Source: Methanomassiliicoccales archaeon
GTDB taxonomy: Archaea > Thermoplasmatota > Thermoplasmata > Methanomassiliicoccales > UBA472
DNA: 64,000 nt
Direction: 5' to 3'
Assembly (NCBI GenBank): GCA_013415865.1
Contig: CP058896.1
Coordinates: 1,221,957 to 1,285,956, forward strand
Positions 4,334-58,061 of this stretch are shown here, piece by piece. Positions within the stretch are counted from its first letter, which is position 1; the number at the start of each line of letters is the position of its first letter. The notes beneath the pieces are model-generated. The model searched no databases and was not told the DNA's origin. It was given only the letters and a program-made list of their open reading frames with translations. Position numbers and translations under genes: made by a program.

Positions 4334-6661
4334 CTATCCTAGAAGCTCCCAGAGAGGGCTGTTCCATCTCTCCCTCAACACGTCGACCCCCTGCTCCAGC
4401 ACCTCGACCTCGTTGAAGACCCTCAGGCTATTGCCCGATACATGCCCGATCTTCACTGCTGGGATCTTCATCTTGTCAATGAACTCGAGCTCCCGTCCCT
4501 TGTCCACCTCGACCACCCACCGGGAGTTAGATTCCGAGAACAGGGAGACGATGTTGGGCAGTTGCATGGCCGATAGGTCTATCTCGGCACCCAGGTCACC
4601 CCCGATGCACATCTCGGCCAATGTGACCGCCAGACCTCCATCTGAAACATCGTGACAGGCCCTGACAATCTCTGCGTCCATGGCGGACCTGAGGGATTCC
4701 AGCGACGCAGCAAGGACCTTCAGGTCCACGTCAGGCACCTCGCCTCCCTTTCCACCGAAGACACGGAAAAGGGCGGAGCCCCCGAACTGGGGCTTGGTGG
4801 TGCCGACCAGATAGAGAGGGTCCCCCTCCTTTTTCAGGTCGGTCGTGACGACCTTCCTGATATCCTCAACGATCCCGACGCCCATGACGGTGACCGTCGG
4901 AAGACATGATCCCGTCGATGCCTCGTTATAGAGCGACACATTCCCAGATGGCACGGCCAGGTTCAGCGCTCTGCACGCATCCCCCATCCCTGCGACCGCC
5001 TCTCTCAGTTCCCCCAGCCTCTCCGGTTTTTCGGGGTTACCGAAATTCAGACAATTGGTTATCGCATGTGGTCTTCCCCCGACGGCGGCTATGTTGCGGC
5101 AGGCCTCGTCGATGGAGGTGGCTCCGCCCCTGTAGGGGTCCAATGATGTGAACCAAGGGTTCACGCCGACCGCTACCGCCAGCCCACGGAACGAATTCGG
5201 CAAGGGCTTAAGGACGGTCGCGTCAGAGGGCCCCCTCAGGTTCATCCTTCCAGCCAGGGGCTTGACGATAGTGCTGCCGCGGACCTCGTGGTCGTACTGC
5301 CTCACGGCCCACTCCTTGGACGCGATGTTCGGGTCGGACAGCAACCTCAACAAGATATCATCGAACTCGCTTGGCAGTTTGGGGAAGACCTCGCTCCTCT
5401 TGGACCGAGGGGATACGACCTTCGACGGCCTGCAATACTCAGGCCCCTTCGTCAAGAATTCGAGGTCGAGATGGAAGACCCGCTCTCCCTTGAACCTGAG
5501 CTCGACATGCTTCCCAGGGACCACCCTACCGATAACAGAGGCGTTCACATCCCATAGGTCGAATACCTCGAGGATCCTTTTCACGTTCTCCTTTGGTGCC
5601 GCGATCATCATCCTTTCTTGCGACTCGGAAACCCAGATCTCCCATGGGGCTAGCCCCTCTTCCTTGAGCGGAACCTTGTCCAGGTCGACCTCCGCCCCGC
5701 ATCCGCCCGATAATGCCATCTCACCTACGACGCAGGAAAGCCCTCCCCCGCCGAGGTCCTTCATACCATGTATCAGACCTAAGGAATTCACCTCAAGGCA
5801 CGCATGTATCAGAGGCTCCTTCGTTATCGGGTCGCCGAGCTGAACCGCCCCGCGCGACTCCTCCTCTGAGCTTGCCTTGAGCTCGGCTGAAGCGAAGGTG
5901 ACCCCATGGATGCCGTCCCTTCCTGTCCTACCTCCAACCAGGATAAGCACATCACCCGCGCCCTTGACGGCGTTCGTGACGAGCTCTTTCCTCTTGACGA
6001 TGCCTAAACATCCTACGTTGACGAGGCAGTTGCCTACATAAGACTCGTCGAACCAGATCCCGCCCGCTATTGTCGGTATCCCGATCCTGTTGCCATAGTC
6101 CCTTATCCCTGCCACCACCCCTCCTACGAGGTATTTCGGGGACTTCATCCCGTTAGGGACCTTGACGTTCCTGTCGATCGGCCCGAAGAAGAGCGGGTCT
6201 ACAAGACCTATGGGCTGCGCGCCCATGCAGAGCACGTCCCTGACTATGCCCCCTATCCCAGTCGCTGCACCACCATAGGGCTCAATGGCGGATGGATGGT
6301 TGTGCGATTCTATCCTTAAGGCATAGCCATGCTCATCATCGAACACCATGACACCGGCATCGCCCTTAGACAGCACATCATCGTTCGATATGTTGAAAAC
6401 ATGCTCCCTAAGGAAGACCTTCGAGCTCTTGTAACAACAGTGCTCGCTCCATGCCTGGGCGATCGATTGGACCTCGACATCGGTCGGAAGCCTCCCCATC
6501 CCGCGGAAGTGCTCCTGGACCCTTTTCATCTCCTCGATGCTCAGGTTGAGGCCCATGCTCATACTGAGCTCCTTGAGCTCATTGTCTGTCGCCGAGAAAA
6601 GGTCCACATCGTATAGCTCGAAGGGCACCTTTCTTTTTATGAGAAGATGGTCGATCGTCAT
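4334..6661 (-). CDS. purL: Phosphoribosylformylglycinamidine synthase, synthetase subunit PurL
   Basis: A protein of 775 residues, the usual size of small PurL, with two tandem AIR-synthase-like halves. Near the N terminus SEHCCYKSSK marks the family; ESHNHPSAIEPYGGAATG is the ATP/FGAR-binding segment, and the second half has NCLNFGNPEKPE and the SGNVSLYNE stretch. It converts FGAR, ATP and ammonia from PurQ to FGAM. The ATG at 6661 is preferred because it follows the purS TGA by five bases; the longer frame would start inside purS. It needs PurS and PurQ, both adjacent on the same strand. It ends with TAG. Confidence 0.97.
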   Translation of the reverse strand: MTIDHLLIKRKVPFELYDVDLFSATDNELKELSMSMGLNLSIEEMKRVQEHFRGMGRLPTDVEVQSIAQAWSEHCCYKSSKVFLREHVFNISNDDVLSKGDAGVMVFDDEHGYALRIESHNHPSAIEPYGGAATGIGGIVRDVLCMGAQPIGLVDPLFFGPIDRNVKVPNGMKSPKYLVGGVVAGIRDYGNRIGIPTIAGGIWFDESYVGNCLVNVGCLGIVKRKELVTNAVKGAGDVLILVGGRTGRDGIHGVTFASAELKASSEEESRGAVQLGDPITKEPLIHACLEVNSLGLIHGMKDLGGGGLSCVVGEMALSGGCGAEVDLDKVPLKEEGLAPWEIWVSESQERMMIAAPKENVKRILEVFDLWDVNASVIGRVVPGKHVELRFKGERVFHLDLEFLTKGPEYCRPSKVVSPRSKRSEVFPKLPSEFDDILLRLLSDPNIASKEWAVRQYDHEVRGSTIVKPLAGRMNLRGPSDATVLKPLPNSFRGLAVAVGVNPWFTSLDPYRGGATSIDEACRNIAAVGGRPHAITNCLNFGNPEKPERLGELREAVAGMGDACRALNLAVPSGNVSLYNEASTGSCLPTVTVMGVGIVEDIRKVVTTDLKKEGDPLYLVGTTKPQFGGSALFRVFGGKGGEVPDVDLKVLAASLESLRSAMDAEIVRACHDVSDGGLAVTLAEMCIGGDLGAEIDLSAMQLPNIVSLFSESNSRWVVEVDKGRELEFIDKMKIPAVKIGHVSGNSLRVFNEVEVLEQGVDVLRERWNSPLWELLG

Positions 6662-6666
6662 GCCGA

Positions 6667-6906
6667 TCACTTGATCTTGACCGAGTACTTCTGTATCACT
6701 GGGTTGGCCAGGAGCTTTCTGCACATATCCTCGCAGGCGGTCCTCGCCTCCGAGGCCTCCAGTTCAAGCTCGATCTCGAAGAGCTTGATGGACCTGACGT
6801 TCTTGATGCCCTTGAAGCCCAACATCTCAAGCGCCTTCCTTGTGTTCTGACCTTCAGGGTCAGCCACCCCCTGCTTGAGCTCGATCCTGATCTCGGCGAT
6901 GACCAT
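6667..6906 (-). CDS. purS: Phosphoribosylformylglycinamidine synthase, PurS subunit
   Basis: A 79-residue protein beginning VIAEIRIELKQGVADPEG and containing MLGFKGIKNVRSIKLFEIE, the PurS pattern. PurS bridges PurL and PurQ in the FGAM synthase complex. An ATG at 6906 behind a GGTG is preferred over a TTG two codons earlier. It is first in the purS-purL-purQ series; a box AAGTTATTTAGTGG on the minus strand near 6940-6953 could be its own promoter, downstream of marC. Confidence 0.94.
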   Translation of the reverse strand: MVIAEIRIELKQGVADPEGQNTRKALEMLGFKGIKNVRSIKLFEIELELEASEARTACEDMCRKLLANPVIQKYSVKIK

Positions 6907-6957
6907 TTCCAATGCACCGCTTCGAGAATCATCGGCCCACTAAATAACTTGTCGTTC

Positions 6958-7620
6958 CTACAGGGCCAAAGGCGATACATGCCAGAACTCTTCCACCGCC
7001 TGGAAGGACCCTGAGAGGACGAACTCTATGGCGATGGCAGCGAGAAGAAGGCCCATGATCCTCGAAAAAGCGGCTGCACCGCTCTTGCCCATCCTTGCAA
7101 AGATCGCGTCCGAGTACTTCAGGAGGAAGTAGCTGATCACCACTGTCAGGAATATCCCTAGGAAGACGGCAAAAATATCGAAGGCGGCGTCAGAGCTGTC
7201 CAGCGCATAAGAGATATAGATCATGACCGTCGTGATCGCCCCTGGTCCTGCAAAAAGGGGGATTCCGAGCGGTACTACCCCGACCTCTTCCTTGGAGGCG
7301 GCCTCGTCATGCTCTGCAGGTGTGATCTTCGTATTTGACAATTGACCTCTGACCATCGAGTATGATATCGAAAAAAGCAACAGACCCCCTGCTATCTTGA
7401 AGGCCGGGATGGTGATGCCATATATGTCGAAGATGTAATTGCCAAGGATGGCGAACACGAAAAGAACACCACCTGAGACGATGCAGACCTTGTTACGCAC
7501 CCTCCTCTTCTGCTCAGGGGTATAACCTTCAGTGATGGCCACATACACGGGGATGTTCCCGATGGGGTTGAGGATGGCGAATATCGATGCAAAAGCCGTC
7601 AATGCGAACTCGAGGCCCAT
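6958..7620 (-). CDS. MarC family integral membrane protein
   Basis: A 220-residue protein with six hydrophobic segments. The first helix holds FASIFAILNPIGNIPVYVAI and the middle VPLGIPLFAGPGAITTVMIY; this double N-P-x-G / G-P-G-A-I pattern identifies the MarC (UPF0056) family of six-helix membrane proteins. Their transport role is unresolved, and the old link to multiple antibiotic resistance is not supported for the family. The ATG at 7620 begins directly with the first helix. It ends with TAG, 52 bases upstream of purS on the same strand. Confidence 0.93.
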   Translation of the reverse strand: MGLEFALTAFASIFAILNPIGNIPVYVAITEGYTPEQKRRVRNKVCIVSGGVLFVFAILGNYIFDIYGITIPAFKIAGGLLLFSISYSMVRGQLSNTKITPAEHDEAASKEEVGVVPLGIPLFAGPGAITTVMIYISYALDSSDAAFDIFAVFLGIFLTVVISYFLLKYSDAIFARMGKSGAAAFSRIMGLLLAAIAIEFVLSGSFQAVEEFWHVSPLAL

Positions 7621-7646
7621 CAGGACGGTTACCGTCAGGGTAGATA

Positions 7647-8432
7647 TTATTCTTTGCCCGAGGCACCCCTACAGGCAAGCCTTCCGAAAGCTAGATAACC
7701 TGTATGGCCAAGCATCTCGTAGGAGGGACGCACGCCCATATCATGCACTTCCATCATGCGCTGTATGTTCTCCAATGCCCTAACCTCTACAAAGCCTGAA
7801 GACCTCATCTTCTTGACCACGAGCTCCAGTTGGTTCGTGTTCGGTACATATGCGCAGATCCTCCCTCCGCATCTCAGGTAGCGTTTGACATTATCGACGG
7901 CCTCCCACGGGTCTGGCATGTCCAGCACGACAGCGTCCGCCTTGATGCCGACATCTATGGTCCTGATGTCGCCGATGACCAGCTCCCAAAGGTCCTTGGC
8001 CCCGCTCCTTGTGACATTCTTCCTTCCTTTTTCGCCAAAATCATCTCTTATCTCGACCGACACGACCTTCCCAGAAGGGCTGACAGCGTTCAGGAGCGCC
8101 GTGGTCAGGGAACCCGACCCAAGGCCTGCCTCCATCACCACATCCCCGTCCTTGAGGTCAAGTTCGAAAACTATCGTGGCGGCGTCCTTTGGTCCTATGA
8201 CCTGTGCCCCCCTCTCCACCGAAGCCATCAGATCTGACACGCCTGGTGACAAAAGGATGAACTTCCTTCCAGCAAGGACGACCTCGCCACCGTCCCCCGC
8301 ATCCAATAGCCTTGCCCCATCTACCACTCCAAGGGACTGCACCTTGATCATACCTCTTTCCAGTCTGACCCAATGCTTTTTCCCCTTATCATCTAGCAGG
8401 AATGCGAGGCGACCTTCCTTGATACCATTCAT
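7647..8432 (-). CDS. trmI: tRNA (adenine-N1)-methyltransferase TrmI (A57/A58)
   Basis: A 261-residue protein. An N-terminal beta-barrel part (HWVRLERGMIKVQSLGVVDG) is followed by a Rossmann-fold methyltransferase with the SAM motif EAGLGSGSLT near residue 100, VSVEIRDDF, the motif IV VVLDMPDPWEAV and YVPNTNQLELV. This is the archaeal TrmI layout; the enzyme puts m1A in the T loop of tRNA (positions 57 and 58 in archaea). The ATG at 8432 is followed by a plausible mature N terminus. It lies 26 bases before the marC start on the same strand and may share its transcript. Family assignment is strong. Confidence 0.92.
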   Translation of the reverse strand: MNGIKEGRLAFLLDDKGKKHWVRLERGMIKVQSLGVVDGARLLDAGDGGEVVLAGRKFILLSPGVSDLMASVERGAQVIGPKDAATIVFELDLKDGDVVMEAGLGSGSLTTALLNAVSPSGKVVSVEIRDDFGEKGRKNVTRSGAKDLWELVIGDIRTIDVGIKADAVVLDMPDPWEAVDNVKRYLRCGGRICAYVPNTNQLELVVKKMRSSGFVEVRALENIQRMMEVHDMGVRPSYEMLGHTGYLAFGRLACRGASGKE

Positions 8433-8453
8433 AGGAAGCTCATCTCCAAAGGC

Positions 8454-8966
8454 TCACTTCAACTTGGCGCCACAGTCACTGCAGACAGCATCAAATGAGG
8501 AAACCGCGGCATTGCACCTTGGGCATCTTGGTATCCCCTCGATCCTTTCCCTCTTTACTGGTGCATCCTCTTTCCATTCTGCCCTTGCTTGTACCGGCGG
8601 GGGCTCGGGAAGGACCACTTCCTCGTCCTTCTTGTCCTCATCCTTTATAGGCCCAGGTTGTGATGAAGGTGCGTCCAACCTCTTTTCCTCTACAGTATCT
8701 GGAACCTTCTCGACCTTCGGTTCTTCCTTGAAAACATATTCAGGTTTACCGTAATCTGGCTTTGGTGGGAGCTCCCTCCCAGTGCTCTGGATCTTGTTCC
8801 TGAATACAAGATACAATCCGAGCCCCAGGACGCTCAGGGGTATGCAGAGAAGGGCCCAGGTCCCTTGTACCTTTTTTCGCCGGTCCATGTCCCAGTAGAC
8901 AAGCATCGATGATGCGATCCCAAGGATCAACCAGACGATCAACATAATTTTCCAATCAAAGCTCAT
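8454..8966 (-). CDS. Membrane-anchored protein with C-terminal zinc ribbon
   Basis: A 170-residue protein with three parts. Two hydrophobic helices at about residues 6-23 and 38-56 anchor it. A charged, Pro-rich linker (60-140; EVVLPEPPPVQ) follows. The C terminus is a zinc ribbon, CPRC and CSDCGAKLK. I do not recognise a named family. The arrangement suggests a membrane-tethered zinc ribbon on the cytoplasmic side. It lies 22 bases upstream of trmI on the same strand and is divergent from the secreted protein gene at 9119 across an AT-rich spacer. Confidence 0.75.
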   Translation of the reverse strand: MSFDWKIMLIVWLILGIASSMLVYWDMDRRKKVQGTWALLCIPLSVLGLGLYLVFRNKIQSTGRELPPKPDYGKPEYVFKEEPKVEKVPDTVEEKRLDAPSSQPGPIKDEDKKDEEVVLPEPPPVQARAEWKEDAPVKRERIEGIPRCPRCNAAVSSFDAVCSDCGAKLK

Positions 8967-41698: not shown

Positions 41699-42454
41699 AT
41701 GCGGATAGTCGGAGTGATGACCGAGGACTTCCACTTCTTCCATGGGGTGGTGAAAAGGCTCAAGGAGAGGAAGGAACCGTTCGTTTCATTGGGTTTCGAT
41801 GACCACGTACCTTGGAACGTCTCTGTTGTGATAACCACCAAGGACGAGAGGTCGAAGGTCCCCCATTCCATGGTGGCGGCCAGTGACGATCCTGATGAGG
41901 CTATAAACATAGCCCGCTCTTTATTAAGGGGCAGAAAGTATGGGGCGTTGGTCGTCGGCATAGACCCTGGTCGAACCATAGGGATAGTCATAATCGGGAA
42001 TGGAAGGGTCATCCATTCCGGCACCTTCGAGTGCCCGGAGGACACCGCCGACAAGGTCATAAAAATGACCTCGGGGCTGGAGTTCGACGAGGTCGTGGTC
42101 AGGATAGGTCATGGGGACAGGACGATAAGGAACAGGATAATCCGCTCGGTCTGGAGCGTGGCAGACAGGGTCGAGATCGTCGATGAGACGAACACCACCA
42201 TGAACACAGAGACCCCAGACATAGACGCGGCGATCCTCATATCGAAGACGAAGGGATATGATCTGGAAAGACCACCTGACATCAGGCCAACGGCGGGCGA
42301 GCTGAGGGAGATACAGAGGCGGTCGAGGATCGAGAGCGAGGGGGCGATCACCATCGGGAAGGAGCTCGCCGGGTGCGTTGCCCGAGGGGAGATGACGATG
42401 AGCGATGCCCTCACTGCCCACAAGGCCGAGGAGAAGAAAAGAAAAAGGGTTTAA
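41699..42454 (+). CDS. RuvC/RNase H-fold protein of unknown function
   Basis: A 251-residue protein. The middle (from about residue 80) has GALVVGIDPGRTIGIVIIGN, the first strand of a RuvC-like RNase H fold with its catalytic Asp and the D-P-G turn; VVRIGHGDRTIRNRII and DIDAAILISK supply possible further acidic residues. An N-terminal domain (RIVGVMTEDFHFFHGVVKRL) precedes it and a basic helix (HKAEEKKRKRV) ends it. I recognise the fold but not a named family. The ATG at 41699 lies behind GAAGTGAAGG. It ends seven bases before the convergent AMP phosphorylase gene. Confidence 0.7.
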   Translation: MRIVGVMTEDFHFFHGVVKRLKERKEPFVSLGFDDHVPWNVSVVITTKDERSKVPHSMVAASDDPDEAINIARSLLRGRKYGALVVGIDPGRTIGIVIIGNGRVIHSGTFECPEDTADKVIKMTSGLEFDEVVVRIGHGDRTIRNRIIRSVWSVADRVEIVDETNTTMNTETPDIDAAILISKTKGYDLERPPDIRPTAGELREIQRRSRIESEGAITIGKELAGCVARGEMTMSDALTAHKAEEKKRKRV

Positions 42455-42461
42455 GTGCGGT

Positions 42462-43982
42462 TCAGAACTTCATCTTAGCATAGGACGGCATCTTTGCCAG
42501 GACCATGCCCTCGATGATCATCGGTTCCAGCTTCTGGGCCAGAGAGAGGGCGTCCTGAAGTTTCACCTCATTCTCCGAGTAGATCGTGAACAGCTTCTCC
42601 CCCTCATCGACCTTCATGCCCACCTTCTTATTGATCACCAGCCCGGCCCCCTTATCACGTGGTGAGCCTGCCGCCCTGGCGATCTTGACTAGGTCCTTGT
42701 TCTTTATCTTGTTCAGATATCCTGATTTCCTGGCGAGGACGTCGACCTGGAACCCGCCCACCTCGATATCCTCCGAGCTGATGTCAGGGTCCCCTCCCTG
42801 AGCCGCAACGATCTCTCTGAACTTCGCCAACGCCTTGCCCGACTCCAACATGGTCCTGGCCCTCTCCTCCCCCCCGCGACCGTTGACCATGTCAAGGAGC
42901 ATGCCGCTGAGGGCGACCGTCTTCTCTATGACGCTGTTGGGGTTCTTTGCCCCTTCAAGGATGGAGATGGCCTCCCTTGCCTCAAGGGCGGGCCCTATGG
43001 CCCTTCCCACAGGCTGACCGCCGTAGGTTATGGCCGCCTCGACCCTTATCCCGAGCTTGTCGCCCAGCTCGATGAAGTCATGTGCATATTGGCGCGCATT
43101 CTCCATGGTCGGGACCTTTGTCCCCTCCCCCATGGGGATGTCTATGAGGAGATAATCAGCATTGACGGCCTTCTTCTTCGACATCACTGATGCCAACAGC
43201 TGCGCGTGGGGGTCGATGCCCAGAGGGTATTCCGCCTTGATGATCACATCATCGGCCGGTGCCAGGTTCAATGACCCGCCCCATGCCATGACCCCGTTCG
43301 TCTTCTCGGCGATCCTCTTCAAGGACCTGCTGTCAAGGTCGACATTCGCGAACACCTCGACGATGTCGGCGGTCCCGGCGGCGGAGCTGATCGCCCTGGA
43401 TGATGTTTTAGGTATAAGGTAACCGGCCGCGGCCACTATCGGGACGATGAGCAGGGTGATCTTGTTCCCTGGACACCCTCCTACGCTATGGAAGTCAAGG
43501 ACAGGGCCCTTATCGAACTTTATCGTCTCGCCGGTCTCGACCATCGCCATCGTCAGGTCCGCCGTCTCCCTGATGTTCATGCCATTTATCTGCATGGAAG
43601 TGACATAGGCGGCGAGCTCTATGCTCGATAAGCTCCTTGAGGAGATATCATGGACGAGCGTGAAGATCTCTTCCTTGGTCAGCTCCAGCCCCTCCATCTT
43701 CTTCTTGATGTACTCCACGCTCTCCGGTCTCGGGGCCGGTACGACCTCGATCACCTCACCTTCCTCCGGCCCTATCATCTTGAAGGCCGCTCCCATAAGC
43801 CCTATCTCGCCCTTCTTCACATAGGAGTCGGTCGTCGACACAATTGCCACGACAGTGTTCCCTTCATGGAATATCTTGACGCGGTCCTTCTCACGGAGAC
43901 CGAGGTTGGCACAGTCATCATCCTGCAGGAGCGCGGTGATCTCCCCCGTGTCGACGTCTATGTATCTTGCCTTGAGCTTCAT
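42462..43982 (-). CDS. deoA: AMP phosphorylase
   Basis: A 506-residue protein of the thymidine phosphorylase superfamily with the extra N-terminal domain (about 1-85) of archaeal AMP phosphorylase. Visible motifs are FDKGPVLDFHSVGGCPGNKI, PKTSSRAISSAAGTADIVE, the AYVTSMQINGMNIRETADLT helix and LGIDPHAQLLASVMSKKKAV. It splits AMP (and CMP, UMP) with phosphate to base and ribose 1,5-bisphosphate. The ATG at 43982 overlaps the RuBisCO stop as ATGA, which fixes the start. Third gene of the AMP pathway operon. Confidence 0.95.
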   Translation of the reverse strand: MKLKARYIDVDTGEITALLQDDDCANLGLREKDRVKIFHEGNTVVAIVSTTDSYVKKGEIGLMGAAFKMIGPEEGEVIEVVPAPRPESVEYIKKKMEGLELTKEEIFTLVHDISSRSLSSIELAAYVTSMQINGMNIRETADLTMAMVETGETIKFDKGPVLDFHSVGGCPGNKITLLIVPIVAAAGYLIPKTSSRAISSAAGTADIVEVFANVDLDSRSLKRIAEKTNGVMAWGGSLNLAPADDVIIKAEYPLGIDPHAQLLASVMSKKKAVNADYLLIDIPMGEGTKVPTMENARQYAHDFIELGDKLGIRVEAAITYGGQPVGRAIGPALEAREAISILEGAKNPNSVIEKTVALSGMLLDMVNGRGGEERARTMLESGKALAKFREIVAAQGGDPDISSEDIEVGGFQVDVLARKSGYLNKIKNKDLVKIARAAGSPRDKGAGLVINKKVGMKVDEGEKLFTIYSENEVKLQDALSLAQKLEPMIIEGMVLAKMPSYAKMKF

Positions 43983-45238
43983 GCCGATCCCCACTTCTCT
44001 ATCGCCTCTCGCAGCTCGACATGGTCCTTGGCATACTCCTCGACAGGGATCCTAAGGAACCCCGCCTCCACGGCCTGCACCATGGCCCGTGCCCCTCCGC
44101 GGACGCCTCTGGGGTGACCGGACACGCCTCCGCCCGCCTGGCATTGGACGTCGTTTCCTGCGATCCCTATGAGCTTTGGGATCATTCCGGGCTGTAGCCC
44201 ACCGGAGGCGACCGGCATGACCGGTCTATAAGGGAGCTCTTTGGTCAGGCATACATCCCTGTTCATAAGGTCCTCGGAAGGGTCCCCCTTCATCTTTCCC
44301 ACACCGAAGGTGCCTATGTGGAGCGCATCCCCTCCGCACATCCGCACAAGCTCAGCGAAGACCCTCATCGATATCCCATGGTCCTTGTTCCTTGTTATGG
44401 CACCATGCATCGTCCTGTGCACGTGTATCGGGACTTTGATCGAAGGGTCCTCTGCCAGTACCTGGACCGCCCCGAAGCCGCAGGTGATGACGTCAACCAT
44501 TATCTGGGATGCACCCAGCTCTTGTGCCCTTTCAGCGACCTCGAGTATCTGATGCCCGTTGGTAGAGACATTGATGGCATGTACCATTATGTGACCGGTC
44601 TCGCTCCTGACACGGTCGAGGGCATCAGCGATAGCGACGACCCTTTCCTCCAGAGGACAGAACCTCTGGTTCACTAGGGTCTCGTCGTCCTTGCCATTCG
44701 TTAGCCCTCCCATCCCAGCCTCATAGACGTAGTCAGCCGTCTGCTTGGGGCTCAGACCTATCTTTGGCTTCACTATGGTCCCGACGAGCGGTCTTTCTGG
44801 CCTCTTCAATATCTTTCTCAATCCCTCGACCCCGAACTTCGGGCCATTGAACTCCTTCAGCATCGACCTGGGGAATCTGACATCCTCAAGCCGGACGCCT
44901 TCAATGGACTCAAGGCCGAAGAGGTTCCCGGCGACGATGCTGAGGATCTGCGGCACCCCTCCTATGTCAAGGCAGAAGTCCTCCTCAGGAAATGCGATGG
45001 TGGCGATGTCTTCCTTGATATCGATGACCTTTCCCCCCCTTTTCTGGAAGTTCTCCTCCTCGAGGGTGGTGATCTCGGTCCAGGTACCGGTCGACTGTTC
45101 GGTAGCGATGGCCGCCGCGGCCTCTTTCATTGTCATCGTGGAGGTCTTCACCTTGTATGTGCAGATGACATGGCTGTCGACGTCGACCTTCTCTCCCAAT
45201 CTCAGATATCTCTCTGAATACTTCTGTGGCGTTGGCAT
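43979..45238 (-). CDS. rbcL: Ribulose-1,5-bisphosphate carboxylase, form III
   Basis: A 419-residue large subunit. Catalytic residues by spinach number are all visible: Thr65/Trp66 in STGTW (49-53), Asn123 in GNLFG, Lys175/Lys177 in IVKPK (157, 159), carbamylated Lys201 with Asp203/Glu204 in KDDE (183-186), His294/Arg295 in HVHRTMH, His327 and Lys334 in HIGTFGVGKMKG (307, 315), and Ser379 in ASGG. The residues just before KDDE read GGLTNG, not the usual GGxDxx. In archaea this enzyme fixes CO2 on RuBP from nucleotide ribose, giving two 3-phosphoglycerates. ATG at 45238 behind GGAGTG; a GTG overlapping the upstream stop is the alternative. No phosphoribulokinase gene in the window. Confidence 0.94.
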   Translation of the reverse strand: MPTPQKYSERYLRLGEKVDVDSHVICTYKVKTSTMTMKEAAAAIATEQSTGTWTEITTLEEENFQKRGGKVIDIKEDIATIAFPEEDFCLDIGGVPQILSIVAGNLFGLESIEGVRLEDVRFPRSMLKEFNGPKFGVEGLRKILKRPERPLVGTIVKPKIGLSPKQTADYVYEAGMGGLTNGKDDETLVNQRFCPLEERVVAIADALDRVRSETGHIMVHAINVSTNGHQILEVAERAQELGASQIMVDVITCGFGAVQVLAEDPSIKVPIHVHRTMHGAITRNKDHGISMRVFAELVRMCGGDALHIGTFGVGKMKGDPSEDLMNRDVCLTKELPYRPVMPVASGGLQPGMIPKLIGIAGNDVQCQAGGGVSGHPRGVRGGARAMVQAVEAGFLRIPVEEYAKDHVELREAIEKWGSA

Positions 45239-45243
45239 TTCTT

Positions 45244-46167
45244 TCACTCCGTGAATATGGATTCCTGCCCGAACTCCCTGACGATTATCTCGTAGGCGGC
45301 ATAGGGCGGCACAACCCCGATCTCAGTGATGATCGAGTCGATGTACTCTGGCGGGGTGGCATCGAAGACAGGATTGAATATCTTGGTGCCTGGTGGGACC
45401 TCGCCGGGCCTTACGACCTCCCCCTCGTCGCGCTCCTCTATCTCCACAAGCTCTCCATACATCGTTCTTGGAGAGAACTTGAACGTCTCGGCGCATACGT
45501 AAAAGGGGACGCGCGCCTCATGGGCGGCCAAGGCGAGCTGCGATGTACCGATCTTGTTGATCAGCACCCCGTTCGAGCATATAGTGTCTGCGCCTACGAA
45601 TACCGCGTCCACATCTTTCATTACGTGGCGGACCGCCGAGTCGACGATCATGGTCACAGGGACCCCCGCTTTAGAAAGGTCATTCACCGTCAATACCCCC
45701 TGGCGCCAAGGTCTGGATTCCGTGGCATATGCCATCTCGACCTTGCCCTGCCTGTATGCCTCCACGATGGCCATCACCGCGGCCTTGCTGTTGCAATGCG
45801 TGAGCACCTTCGACCCCTTCTTCAATCTGTTCGCGCCCATACGGCCGATGTTCGTCAGGGCCTCGTGCGACCTCTTGACGAAGATGTCAGCGTTCCTGAC
45901 GACCGTTGCTTTGGCAGGTCCCAGGTCCTTCTGTCCGTTCAGACCCTTCAGCACGAACTGTACGGCATTCCATAATGAGATGGCCGTGGGCCTAGAGGAA
46001 AGCAGCATCTCCTTGGCCTCCTGCAAGGACCTCATGAGGCCTTCCACATCATCACCTGAGTAGGCCAGGGCCTCCTCCTTCAGCGCGAGGGCCGCCTGTC
46101 TTGCTATCTCCGCGGCCCCCCGGACCTCCATGCTCTTGATTTTCTCTGTGGCCTCCCTTGCTCTCAT
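45244..46167 (-). CDS. Ribose 1,5-bisphosphate isomerase
   Basis: A 307-residue protein of the eIF2B-alpha/MtnA fold. SMEVRGAAEIARQAALALKE, SRPTAISLWNAV, LTHCNSKAAVMAIVEAYRQG, ESRPWRQG and DAVFVGADTICSNGVLINKIG are typical; the Cys in the HCNS loop and the Asp of FVGAD are the known catalytic positions. It turns ribose 1,5-bisphosphate into RuBP for RuBisCO. Position directly before rbcL and deoA separates it from the related eIF2B subunits and methylthioribose phosphate isomerase. A minus-strand TATA-like AAATTATTAGAAAGG at 46188-46202 predicts a near-leaderless start. Confidence 0.94.
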   Translation of the reverse strand: MRAREATEKIKSMEVRGAAEIARQAALALKEEALAYSGDDVEGLMRSLQEAKEMLLSSRPTAISLWNAVQFVLKGLNGQKDLGPAKATVVRNADIFVKRSHEALTNIGRMGANRLKKGSKVLTHCNSKAAVMAIVEAYRQGKVEMAYATESRPWRQGVLTVNDLSKAGVPVTMIVDSAVRHVMKDVDAVFVGADTICSNGVLINKIGTSQLALAAHEARVPFYVCAETFKFSPRTMYGELVEIEERDEGEVVRPGEVPPGTKIFNPVFDATPPEYIDSIITEIGVVPPYAAYEIIVREFGQESIFTE

Positions 46168-46187: not shown

Positions 46188-46202
46188 CCTTTCTAATAAT
46201 TT
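46188..46202 (-). promoter_or_regulatory. TATA box of the AMP pathway operon
   Basis: On the minus strand AAATTATTAGAAAGG lies between the polX stop (46228) and the isomerase ATG (46167). Its centre is about 29 bases from the ATG, so transcription would start within a few bases of translation. It suggests that the three-gene operon is transcribed apart from polX. Confidence 0.45.
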
Positions 46203-46227: not shown

Positions 46228-47925
46228 TTAGAAAATATCGGGCATCGGTCTGGTATTGGCGACCCTGTCCTTGGTGACGAGGCCCCGCCTGGCCGTAGCG
46301 ACACCATAGAGGATGTTATCAAGATGTGCGACCTTGTGGGAATCGCTGTTGATCACAAGGGTGTTCCCGTTCTCCACGGCGGCCCGGCAGGCCGTTGCAC
46401 CAAGGTCCAGACGGTCCGGGAAGGAATTGACCTCAAGCCAGACCCCTTTTGCCCTGGCCTCGTCCATGATCCTTTCCATATCAATGGCATAGGCCTCCCT
46501 TTGGCCGATCAACCTTCCGGTCGGGTGGGCCAGTATCTTCATTTTATTGTGGCCCATGGCAGTGATCATCCTGCCTGTCATCTCGGCCTCGGTCATCCTG
46601 AACCTGGTGTGCACGGCCCCCACCACATAATCCAATTGGTCCAGCACATCGCTGGGGTAATCCAGCTTGCCTCGGTCATCGATCTCCACCTCGGCGCCGA
46701 TGAACACCTTGAACGGGGCAAGCTCATCCGTAAGACGTTCCGCCACCTTGATGTTCTCCCTGAGCCGTGAAATGTCCAGGCCGTTCGCTATCTTAAGACT
46801 TTGTGAGTGATCGGTTATTCCGATGTACTCGTATCCCCGCGCCTTTGCAGCCAGTACCATCCTTTCGATACTATCGGCACCATCAGATGAATCGGTGTGG
46901 ACATGGAGGTCCCCTTTTATGTCGGACATTTCGACGAGACGAGGAAGTTTATGCTCCTTTGCCATCGCGAGCTCGCCTATGCATTCCCTAATCTCTGGAG
47001 GTATCCAATCCAATCCCAGTGCACCATATATCTCCTTCTCGTCCCGGGATGCGATGACCGTTCCATCTTCCTTCTTGAAAAGCCCGTATTCATTGAGCCG
47101 ATAGCCCTGCCCCATCGCCATCGTCCTCAGTGCGATATTATGCTCCTTTGAGCCAGTGAAATATAGCAGGGCCGCGCCATAGCTCTCGGGGCTTACGACC
47201 CTAAGGTCCACCTGCGCTCCGGTCCTTAGCCTGACCGATGAACGGGTATCCCCTCTTGCCACGACATCCTCCACCTCGGGATAATTGATGAAGGTCTCCG
47301 TGACCTTGGAGGGTTCATCGCTGCCAGCAAGGATATCGATGTCGCCGACGGTCTCTTTCATCCTTCGAAGGCTGCCAGCATAGTCCACCATGCTCAATCC
47401 TCCTTTTTCCTTGAGATAGGCGACCATCCCTACCGCGATAGGGTGTGCATAGCCCAGAAGCATCCTTCCCCGGCTCTTCTCAAGGTACCTGATGCCTTTG
47501 AGGATGTTCTCCTCGGTCCTCTCTCCGAACCCTCTCATTTTCCTTATGCGATGTTCCTCTGCGGCCTGGCGAAGGTCGTTGATATTGGTTATCTTCAGCT
47601 CTTTGTACAATCTCATGACCGTCTTGGGCCCGATATCCGGGACCTCCAGGACCTGCATCAATCCGGCAGGGAACTCCGCCCTGAGCTCGTCCAGGTATCT
47701 CAATCGGCCGGTCTCCACTATCTCCTTGATCTTTCCTTCGATGGCCTCGCCCACTCCTGGAATATCCTTCAGGGCGTTCCTGGCCATTACATCCTTGACA
47801 TCTTCCTGAAGGGTCTCGATATGATAAGCTGCCCTACGATAGGCCTGGGGCTTGAACCTCTCCTCCTTGAGCTCGAGGAGGTCGGCGATCTCGTATAATA
47901 TGCCGGCGACCTTCTGGTTCATCAT
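46228..47925 (-). CDS. polX: PolX-type DNA polymerase/PHP phosphoesterase
   Basis: A 565-residue protein. Two helix-hairpin-helix motifs (IPGVGEAIEGKIKEIV, VPDIGPKTVMRLYKEL) precede a family X nucleotidyltransferase palm (AGSLRRMKETVGDIDILAGS, then QVDLRVVSPESYGAALLYFTGS). The C-terminal PHP domain has GDLHVHTDSSDGA, YIGITDHSQS, GAEVEI, AHPTGR and NSDSHK. Such enzymes fill gaps in base excision repair and carry a PHP-based 3'-5' exonuclease or AP endonuclease. Two ATGs in a row open the frame. Length fits the family. Confidence 0.95.
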   Translation of the reverse strand: MMNQKVAGILYEIADLLELKEERFKPQAYRRAAYHIETLQEDVKDVMARNALKDIPGVGEAIEGKIKEIVETGRLRYLDELRAEFPAGLMQVLEVPDIGPKTVMRLYKELKITNINDLRQAAEEHRIRKMRGFGERTEENILKGIRYLEKSRGRMLLGYAHPIAVGMVAYLKEKGGLSMVDYAGSLRRMKETVGDIDILAGSDEPSKVTETFINYPEVEDVVARGDTRSSVRLRTGAQVDLRVVSPESYGAALLYFTGSKEHNIALRTMAMGQGYRLNEYGLFKKEDGTVIASRDEKEIYGALGLDWIPPEIRECIGELAMAKEHKLPRLVEMSDIKGDLHVHTDSSDGADSIERMVLAAKARGYEYIGITDHSQSLKIANGLDISRLRENIKVAERLTDELAPFKVFIGAEVEIDDRGKLDYPSDVLDQLDYVVGAVHTRFRMTEAEMTGRMITAMGHNKMKILAHPTGRLIGQREAYAIDMERIMDEARAKGVWLEVNSFPDRLDLGATACRAAVENGNTLVINSDSHKVAHLDNILYGVATARRGLVTKDRVANTRPMPDIF

Positions 47926-54739: not shown

Positions 54740-55387
54740 CTATTTTTTGGAGACCTTCTCCCAGTCCTTCAGGAACCTCTCTATCCCGATGTCGGTCAAG
54801 GGGTGCCTGAACATCTTCTTCAGCACATCGTATGGGATGGTTGCCACATGGGCCCCCATCCTTGCGGACTCTGTCACATGGACCGGGTCCCTGACGCTGG
54901 CAACGATGACCTCGGTCGGAAACTCATAATTACCGAATATGTCCAAGATCTCTGCGATCAGGTCCATCCCGTTCTGACCTATATCGTCGAGACGGCCGAC
55001 GAAAGGGGACACATATGCGGCCCCTGCCTTTGCGGCCAACAACGCCTGGTTGGCGCTGAAGATGAGCGTCACATTTACTTTTATCCCCTCGGAGGAGAGC
55101 ACCTTCGTGGCCTTTAGGCCCTCCTCGTTCATAGGGACCTTGACCACGATGTTCTTATGGACCTTGGCGAGCTTGCGCCCCTCCTCGACTATGTCCTCTG
55201 CCTTCGTGCTGACCGCCTCAACGCTGATCGGTCCGTCAACTATCTCACAGATCTCCTTCACGAGCTTTGAGAAGTCCTTGTTCTCCTTCGCGACGAGCGA
55301 TGGGTTCGTGGTCACGCCGTCAAGTATGCCCCAGCTGTTGACTTCCTTGATCTGTTCGATGTTGGCCGTATCTATGAAGATCTTCAT
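54740..55387 (-). CDS. Transaldolase-like protein (TalC/MipB type)
   Basis: A 215-residue aldolase of the small transaldolase/fructose-6-phosphate aldolase group. [20 protein letters not shown] opens it, [12 protein letters not shown] follows, the Schiff-base Lys is in NIVVKVPM, and [16 protein letters not shown] and [14 protein letters not shown] are typical. With split transketolase next to it, a transaldolase role in pentose formation is more likely than fructose-6-phosphate aldolase activity. Its ATG overlaps the transketolase stop as ATGA. Confidence 0.93.
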
Positions 55388-56331
55388 CTGTCACGCCTCC
55401 TAATGGCTTCCTTTGCCGCTTGGACAACGCTCTCCGCGGTCAGTCCATATTTCATCATGAGCTCCTCGCTCTCACCGGACTCGCCGAACATATCGTCCAT
55501 CCCGACGATGTGGACAGGTACAGATATCTTGTCAGCGAGATATGTGGCGACCGCTGAACCGGCACCGGTGAGCTTGTTGTGCTCCTCTGCCACGACTATC
55601 GCCCCGGTCTCCTTCGCTGCCTTTATGAGCATCTCCCCGTCCAAAGGCTTGATCGTGCTCAGGTTGAGCACCCTTGGTGAGACCCCCTCTTTTGCCAGCA
55701 TATCGGCCGCATCAAGGCAGGCCGCCAGCATCTGGCCGGTACCGATCAATGTTACGTCGTTGCCATCTCTTACGGTCTGGACCTTTCCGATCCTGAACTC
55801 CGTCGAGCCCTCCGTCACCACAGGGACCTCAGAGCGCCCCATCCGTACATAGCATGGGCCCTTGAAATCCGCTACCGCCATGACGGCCCTATACGTCTCA
55901 GGAGCATCGGCCGGGACCACCACCGTCATGTTCGGTATGGTCCTCATCAGGGCGATGTCCTCCATGGTCTGATGCGATGCCCCGTCCGGACCCACCGAGA
56001 TCCCTGCATGCGTCGCGACTATCTTGACATTGAGCTTGGGATAGGCGATAGATTGCCTGATCTGGTCAAGACACCTCCCTGTTGCAAACACGGCAAAGCT
56101 GGAGGCAAATACCGTCTTTCCCGCTGATGCGAGGCCAGCAGCGGTACCTATCATGTTCTGCTCCGCGATGCCGCAATTGAAGAACCTCTCAGGAAAGGCC
56201 TTTGCGAACTTGCTGGTCCTTGTCGACCCAGAAAGGTCCGAATCGAGGACGACGACGTCCTCCCTGATCTTACCAAGGTCGACGAGGGCCCGACCATATT
56301 CTTTCCTTTGGGCGATCATCTGACGCTTCAA
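55384..56331 (-). CDS. Transketolase, C-terminal subunit
   Basis: A 315-residue protein covering the pyrimidine-binding and C-terminal domains: [23 protein letters not shown] has the catalytic Glu, [20 protein letters not shown] and [13 protein letters not shown] follow. Archaeal transketolase is often split like this. The TTG at 56331 overlaps the upstream stop (TTGA) and stands five bases after GGGGGAG; an ATG four codons later is possible but has no such ribosome site. Coupled to the transaldolase-like gene downstream. Confidence 0.94.
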
Positions 56332-57164
56332 TCTATCTCCCCCAGCTCACGCAGCGCCCTTTCGGTCTCTTCCTTATTGGTGGATTTTCCATGGAATGCC
56401 ACATTGTTCTCCATGAACGAAACGCCCTTGCCCTTCACGGTCTTGGCTATGATGACAGATGGCCGGCCTTTATGCGCCTTAGCCCTCTCAAGTGCCTCAA
56501 GGACCATCCTCATGTTGTTCCCATCGATCTCGATCACATTCCATCCGAAGGCCCGCCATTTGTCGTTCAGAGGCTCCAATGCCATGACCTTTTCGGTCGG
56601 GCCGTCGATCTGCAGGCCGTTCCTGTCGACGATGCAGGTGATGTTGTCAATCTTATAATGAGATGCGAACATCGCGGCCTCCCAGATCTGGCCCTCCTGC
56701 ATCTCGCCGTCCCCGCAGAGGCAGAAGACGTGATATGGGAGCTTATCCAAACGGGCGGCCAGTGCCATCCCGTTCGCGATGCTCAGCCCCTGTCCCAACG
56801 ACCCTGTGGACATCTCGACCCCGGGGGTCTTGGTCCTGCATGGGTGCCCCTGAAGCCTGCAGGAGACCTTCCTTAGGGTGACGAGCTCATCCACAGGGAA
56901 GTATCCGGACTCGGCGAGCGCGGCATAATATACAGGCGCACAGTGCCCTTTTGAGAGGACGAACCTGTCCCTTTCAGGCCAGTCCTTGTTCTTTGGATCG
57001 TGGCGCATGAACTTGAAGAAAAGCGCGGTCACGATGTCGGCAGACGACAGCGAGCCACCAGGGTGGCCGGAGCCGGCCTGGAAGGTCATCTTGATGACAT
57101 GCCGGCGGAGAAGATTGGCTTTGCTCTCCAGCATCTTGATGGTCTCTTCGTCGAAGGAGGACAA
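56328..57164 (-). CDS. Transketolase, N-terminal subunit
   Basis: A protein of about 278 residues, the thiamine diphosphate-binding half. KMTFQAGSGHPGGSLSSADI, RDRFVLSKGHCAPVYYAALA, STGSLGQGLSIANGMALAAR and CGDGEMQEGQIWEAA with the ThDP motif are all present. No ATG precedes the conserved start closely; a TTG at 57164, seven bases after GAGGTG, is the best reading, while an ATG at 57134 and much earlier codons are alternatives. It heads the transketolase-transaldolase gene set. Confidence 0.92.
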   Translation of the reverse strand: MSSFDEETIKMLESKANLLRRHVIKMTFQAGSGHPGGSLSSADIVTALFFKFMRHDPKNKDWPERDRFVLSKGHCAPVYYAALAESGYFPVDELVTLRKVSCRLQGHPCRTKTPGVEMSTGSLGQGLSIANGMALAARLDKLPYHVFCLCGDGEMQEGQIWEAAMFASHYKIDNITCIVDRNGLQIDGPTEKVMALEPLNDKWRAFGWNVIEIDGNNMRMVLEALERAKAHKGRPSVIIAKTVKGKGVSFMENNVAFHGKSTNKEETERALRELGEID

Positions 57165-57284
57165 CAAACAACACCTCTGAGGATGGGGTGAGACAATAAT
57201 CAGGTTACGATTAAATAGCTTTTGGAGCAACCCTGGCGGTCTCCAGGGATGACTTAAAGAGCACAAAACCCATTGACACTCTTC
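57165..57284. promoter_or_regulatory. Divergent promoter region, transketolase and HD protein
   Basis: A 120-base spacer between divergent starts. GACTTAAAGAG at 57250-57260 fits a TATA box for the HD gene (start of transcription close to the ATG at 57285). On the minus strand AGCTATTTAATCG near 57210-57222 suits the transketolase gene. CCCTGGCGGTCTCCAGGG near 57231-57248 is an inverted repeat (CCCTGG/CCAGGG) that lies between the two boxes. Confidence 0.45.
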
Positions 57285-58061
57285 ATGGCCATCTGCGTCG
57301 AGCCCACGCACAAGGGCAACGAGCGACTTTGCAAAGTAGTCGACAGGATGAACTCAGACATCGAGATCAGGACCCTCTGGCGGGCGTCAAACATCACAGC
57401 GATCGACCGCCTAGGATATAACGACCACGGGCCGACGCACATCCGCATCGTGACGAAGACGGCCCTGAAGATGCTGGACCTTCTCATCGAGGCGGGGATG
57501 CAACCGAGCGTAGTCAAGGACTACAAGCTGACGGAGCAGGATGCCGAGGTCATTGTAGTGCTCGCTGCGGCATTGCACGACATCGGTCATGCCGTCCACC
57601 GCGACAAACATGAGGAGTACTCGATATCGATGGCGCCTCAGATAATCAGACGTTTGCTCGAAGGCATCTACGATGAGGAGAAGGCGGCGATCATGATGGC
57701 CGAGATCCTTCACGCGATAATCGCACACAGGGAGGATGTCCTGCCTTTGACATTGGAGGCAGGCGTGGTCAGAGTGGCCGACGCGCTCGACATGGAGAAG
57801 GGAAGGGCGAGGATACCGTTCCAGGCCGGCAAGGTGAACATACACTCAGTCTCGGCGCTGGCCATAGACAAGGTCCGCGTCAAGAAAGGAACGGAGAGGC
57901 CGATCCTCGTCGAGATAGAGATGAGCAACTCCGCGGGCATATTCCAGATAGACGAGCTGCTTAGGGACAAGGTCGAAAAATCAGGCATCAGGGACAAGAT
58001 CACTATCGTGGTCCACGTCCCGAAGGAAGAGAAGAGGATCATCGAGCGTCTGGAGCTTTAA
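57285..58061 (+). CDS. HD-domain phosphohydrolase
   Basis: A 258-residue HD-superfamily protein. The metal ligands are in GYNDHGPTHIRIV (His), AAALHDIGHAVHR (the HD pair) and a later HAIIAHRED and VRVADALDMEKGR (Asp). This spacing matches archaeal HD phosphohydrolases of the COG1418 kind. A nucleotide or cyclic-nucleotide substrate is likely, but not shown. The ATG at 57285 is near-leaderless; a TTG four codons upstream is less likely. Its stop overlaps the PCNA stop by four bases. Confidence 0.88.
   Translation: MAICVEPTHKGNERLCKVVDRMNSDIEIRTLWRASNITAIDRLGYNDHGPTHIRIVTKTALKMLDLLIEAGMQPSVVKDYKLTEQDAEVIVVLAAALHDIGHAVHRDKHEEYSISMAPQIIRRLLEGIYDEEKAAIMMAEILHAIIAHREDVLPLTLEAGVVRVADALDMEKGRARIPFQAGKVNIHSVSALAIDKVRVKKGTERPILVEIEMSNSAGIFQIDELLRDKVEKSGIRDKITIVVHVPKEEKRIIERLEL

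Follow-up and report, generated by a model that had tools for sequence, protein, structure and literature searches.

A three-gene operon for a probable AMP pathway with an archaeal form III-side RuBisCO in Methanomassiliicoccales

In the genome of a Methanomassiliicoccales archaeon (GCA_013415865.1), the genes for a ribose-1,5-bisphosphate (R15P) isomerase, the large subunit of a RuBisCO on the archaeal form III side and an AMP phosphorylase stand in one compact unit, and we consider it highly probable that this operon encodes an AMP (pentose-bisphosphate) pathway of the Thermococcus type. The arrangement is near-universal in the order, real and tidy yet largely ordinary. The window analysed here is a 64,000-nt stretch of contig CP058896.1 (positions 1,221,957-1,285,956), and coordinates of the locus are those of the window. 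The genome consists of a single contig of 1,818,080 bases and is 99.77% complete. Its owner is a relative of the Methanomassiliicoccaceae within the methanogen order Methanomassiliicoccales; among named organisms, its closest kin are MAGs of Methanomassiliicoccales, whose RuBisCOs are 82-85% identical to the one described here.

The three genes lie on the minus strand (46167-42462) in the order isomerase, rbcL, AMP phosphorylase. The first encodes an isomerase of the e2b2 type (45244..46167, 307 aa). The RuBisCO gene (43979..45247), with matches to PF00016 and PF02788, starts either at a GTG at 45247 or, likelier, at an ATG at 45238, and the AMP (NMP) phosphorylase gene (42462..43982) encodes 506 aa from an ATG at 43982, a GTG at 43994 being a possible alternative. 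The isomerase stop codon and the GTG in the rbcL frame share a GTGA, and the ATG three codons later, a start common to many relatives, leaves a 5-nt gap instead. At the second junction, the rbcL stop and the phosphorylase start overlap in an ATGA (43979..43982) that can be read directly in the sequence, so that the tight unit described in the first-pass annotation was borne out. The same ATGA is present in 36 of 42 order loci; because both it and the gene order recur, and because the family scores are far above background, a chance origin of the arrangement is excluded.

Upstream of the isomerase start, at a distance of about 30-35 nt, we found a TATA-like element, AAATTATTA (46194..46202, minus strand), which is a probable archaeal promoter. 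An A/T run of at least six within 50-18 nt before the isomerase start occurs in 25 of 40 order loci, compared with 7 of 41 before rbcL, 3 of 41 before the phosphorylase gene and 7% of random windows. The presence of such an element before the isomerase gene, and its rarity before the other two, supports one transcript; probably, a single archaeal promoter serves all three genes and their translation is coupled. Scans for sigma-70 promoters and terminators gave nothing useful for an archaeon.

The upstream neighbour, a PolX-type DNA polymerase/PHP gene on the same strand (46228..47925; NF006375, 534 bits against a cut-off of 426), probably lies outside the three-gene unit. It adjoins the trio in families f1, f3 and f4 and in at least one f5 locus; in the f2 loci, no such neighbour was detected. 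On the other side, a convergent gene of about 250 aa (41699..42454, plus strand), without a Pfam or NCBIfam match, marks the 3' boundary of the operon; its homologue is convergent to the operon in most loci of f1 and f3-f6, and within f2 in L064 only. Wherever this 3' neighbour is present, it faces the operon. The window also holds, about 9 kb away from the RuBisCO operon, a second sugar-phosphate operon (54740-57311, minus strand) composed of a gene of the transaldolase/FSA type and two genes for a split transketolase, one for its C half and one for its N half, with 4-nt overlaps at each junction.

The three gene identities proposed in the first-pass annotation hold, with curated cut-offs passed for the isomerase and the phosphorylase, and domain matches, residues and tree placement supporting the RuBisCO. 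The isomerase scores 374 bits with TIGR00511 (cut-off 314) and fails the MtnA model TIGR00512 (220 bits against 279). Its best solved relatives are the R15P isomerases 5yfj and 3a11, and in alignment with 5yfj the catalytic Cys (THC) and Asp (GAD) motifs are kept. The phosphorylase scores 676 bits with TIGR03327 (cut-off 535), and its residues 1-493 align with residues 1-495 of the Thermococcus kodakarensis enzyme 4ga5, including the extra N-terminal domain; the ATG at 43982 corresponds to residue 1 of that protein. Both enzymes thus match solved Thermococcus/Pyrococcus counterparts over their full length.

In the case of the RuBisCO, we assigned catalytic positions by motif. The protein keeps E60, T65, W66, N123, K175, K177, K201, D203, E204, H294, R295, H327 and K334, as well as S379, G381, G403 and G404. 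Only T173 is replaced, by Ile, as in most aligned form III sequences, and all other standard catalytic positions are present. These positions are also kept in 41 further order loci (a count that leaves out the decayed locus L069) and in eight f11 loci, the sole exception in the order being G404A in L068. Unlike the RuBisCO-like proteins (RLPs) L078 and L093, the host protein shows no replacement at K177, R295, H298 or H327, and a form IV identity was ruled out by the residues that are missing in aligned RLPs yet present here. Two other features were considered as distinctive traits and discarded: a 12-15-residue gap that follows loop 6 has a similar counterpart in the solved P. horikoshii protein 2cwx and in other aligned sequences, and a loop 6 longer by one residue is also found in 1geh, 8dht and 6hun.

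A RuBisCO tree placed the host sequence in a Thermoplasmata clade, comprising the order and families f11, f15 and f24, with support of 100/99. This clade is separate from the T. kodakarensis, P. horikoshii, Hyperthermus and f18 sequences, and the host protein does not group with the form III-b enzymes 1geh, 2cwx and 6hun; the lone Methanoregula sequence, our single form III-a comparison, did not join the Thermoplasmata clade. A deeper split, with support of 71/19, places the Thermoplasmata clade tentatively on the RLP side. The form III assignment of the first-pass annotation is therefore backed by tree and residues and not by the curated form III equivalog TIGR03326, for which the host protein scores 394 bits, under the cut-off of 497. 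All clade members tested also fall below it (343-397 bits), and scores of 514-591 bits were obtained for f18, Pacearchaeota, Aenigmatarchaeota and one bacterial MAG, including 577 for the form III-b-like f18 protein.

The gene set supports the reading of the operon as a route from AMP to 3-phosphoglycerate, as had been proposed. The phosphorylase would convert AMP and phosphate into adenine and R15P, with CMP and UMP probably among its further substrates; the isomerase would turn R15P into ribulose-1,5-bisphosphate (RuBP), and the RuBisCO would combine RuBP with CO2 to give two molecules of 3-phosphoglycerate, which would enter central metabolism. We infer these activities, and the direction of flux, from family membership and conserved residues. 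The claim that the window holds no phosphoribulokinase (PRK) gene could be extended to the 99.8% complete genome, in which a family profile search with PF00485 gave no match (the same model matched 11 of 14 positive controls), and a PF00016 search detected a single RuBisCO. With no PRK detected, the source of RuBP would be nucleotides, and the system would mainly dispose of or recycle surplus nucleotide ribose with CO2 uptake following; the view of the first-pass annotation, that CO2 is fixed as a side result, is the likeliest. The position of the RuBisCO, under the TIGR03326 cut-off and outside the clade of characterised form III-b enzymes, counts against an AMP pathway, and since the genome encodes transketolase, transaldolase and R5P isomerase, ribose could be disposed of with no strict need for this route.

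In a rival reading, the operon would form part of a PRK-free CO2 fixation cycle, in which R5P from transketolase/transaldolase or RuMP enzymes is converted to PRPP, a purine phosphoribosyltransferase (PRT) makes AMP from PRPP and adenine, and the operon leads from AMP to RuBP and 3-phosphoglycerate, adenine acting only as a carrier. The genome does encode transketolase N and C parts, a transaldolase-type protein, R5P isomerase, HxlB, PRPP synthetase and a purine PRT of the apt/archaeal HPT type. However, every one of the required genes has an ordinary anabolic role, each turn would cost one PRPP, and the PRT may instead act on hypoxanthine/guanine, with a matching segment that scores about equally with NF002635 and NF040646. 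We regard such a cycle as improbable, and are similarly sceptical of the broader proposal that the Thermoplasmata operon represents a separate, vertically inherited RuBisCO lineage that would serve adenine-carried, PRK-free CO2 fixation via PRPP and AMP in these methanogens, beyond salvage.

The RuBisCO step is irreversible, which weighs against a first step running mainly in reverse, with bases and R15P yielding NMPs and the RuBisCO draining excess R15P. The T. kodakarensis literature does describe R15P as a branch point that lies on a route from nucleosides to NMPs as well (PMC9700705), and the host genome contains a PfkB kinase match that is best to nucleoside kinases with some similarity to R1P kinases. 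This protein nevertheless fails every curated cut-off, and the only PNP/UDP-family phosphorylase of the genome is an MTA phosphorylase, making an R1P supply doubtful; we therefore judge this alternative very unlikely. Less credible still is a branch of methionine salvage composed of an MtnA-like isomerase and a RuBisCO-like enolase. Although the isomerase and the RuBisCO are homologous to MtnA and MtnW, the former lies above the R15P isomerase cut-off and below that of MtnA, and the latter holds residues missing from aligned RLPs. As the genome has a separate MtnA (858510-859322) and, encoded elsewhere, the MTA phosphorylase, we rejected this reading.

The first-pass annotation had called the arrangement unusual for a Thermoplasmatota background, which was not supported by a sample of 300 genomes drawn from the class, 65 of them from the order: linkage is near-universal in Methanomassiliicoccales and extends to four further Thermoplasmata families (f11, f15, f23 and f24). 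A PF00016 RuBisCO was found in 64 of the 65 order genomes; among the non-matching genomes, apparently listed by kinship, only G204 belongs to the order. By comparison of coordinates, the AMP phosphorylase gene adjoins the RuBisCO gene in 63 of the 64 RuBisCO-bearing genomes, and the order isomerase-rbcL-phosphorylase is identical in every order locus read at full length except that of G208. Elsewhere in the class, the RuBisCO and AMP phosphorylase genes are hundreds of kilobases apart in the single-contig f18 genomes G013 and G059, and lie on separate contigs in f7, f10 and f16. Linkage largely tracks the Thermoplasmata RuBisCO clade, with f23 and the bacterial MAG locus L014 combining a linked set with a different RuBisCO. 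In L014 (MAG AUK056, 5099-8718), isomerase, RuBisCO and AMP phosphorylase genes follow in the same order, and the RuBisCO falls outside the Thermoplasmata clade.

Some genomes of the sample depart from this pattern. In G208, the RuBisCO (L069 4215-2995, minus strand) carries D203S, H294R, H327Y, G403E and G404S, the AMP phosphorylase is absent and the isomerase homologue is present only in pieces, and the pathway seems to be decaying. G204, which has no RuBisCO, has kept the AMP phosphorylase, with an RNase III-like gene replacing rbcL upstream (L110 172-2340). A second AMP phosphorylase-like paralogue lies off the operon in about ten or more Methanomethylophilaceae-type (f2) genomes, for instance at G119:C1:414471-415955 and at similar places in others.

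The chemistry of the AMP pathway is established in T. kodakarensis (PMC9700705, PMC12628685), where TK0352, TK0185 and TK2290 belong to the same three enzyme families, are expected to perform the same reactions and likewise require no PRK. Judging by their locus tags, the three T. kodakarensis genes are far apart (PMC9700705), whereas those of the host form one operon, and the RuBisCOs of the two organisms fall in different clades. Methanospirillum hungatei, another methanogen with a RuBisCO and the RuMP-type enzyme HxlB, runs a reductive hexulose-phosphate pathway with PRK (PMC5241800); as PRK was not detected in the host genome, RuBP would have to derive from R15P. The non-carboxylating pentose-bisphosphate pathway of halophiles also has an operon-borne R15P isomerase, but it employs an RuBP phosphatase and an aldolase in place of a RuBisCO (PMC9700705).

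Form III RuBisCOs of Methanomassiliicoccales and Thermoplasmatales already appear, near two Methanosaeta sequences, in the tree of Gunn et al. (2017; PMC5399129), so that the existence of these enzymes at order level had been reported; no treatment of the operon or pathway of the order was found in that paper. A search for form III RuBisCO together with Thermoplasmatota returned no paper, the word "ribulose" is absent from the main text of the study of the order by Borrel et al. (2014), and in the literature searched, with partial coverage, we found neither a description of the order-wide operon nor a measured activity for any RuBisCO of the Thermoplasmata clade. The pathway, its enzymes and the RuBisCOs of the order are therefore known, and the order-wide three-gene operon is, within that literature, apparently undescribed.

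The operon would represent a compact, single-operon form, in sediment and gut methanogens, of a pathway that has been studied mainly in hyperthermophiles with scattered genes. Given the tentative placement of the Thermoplasmata RuBisCO clade near the RLPs, the kinetics of its members would bear on the origins of RuBisCO. Finally, conservation across the order points to a pathway of some importance for its members.
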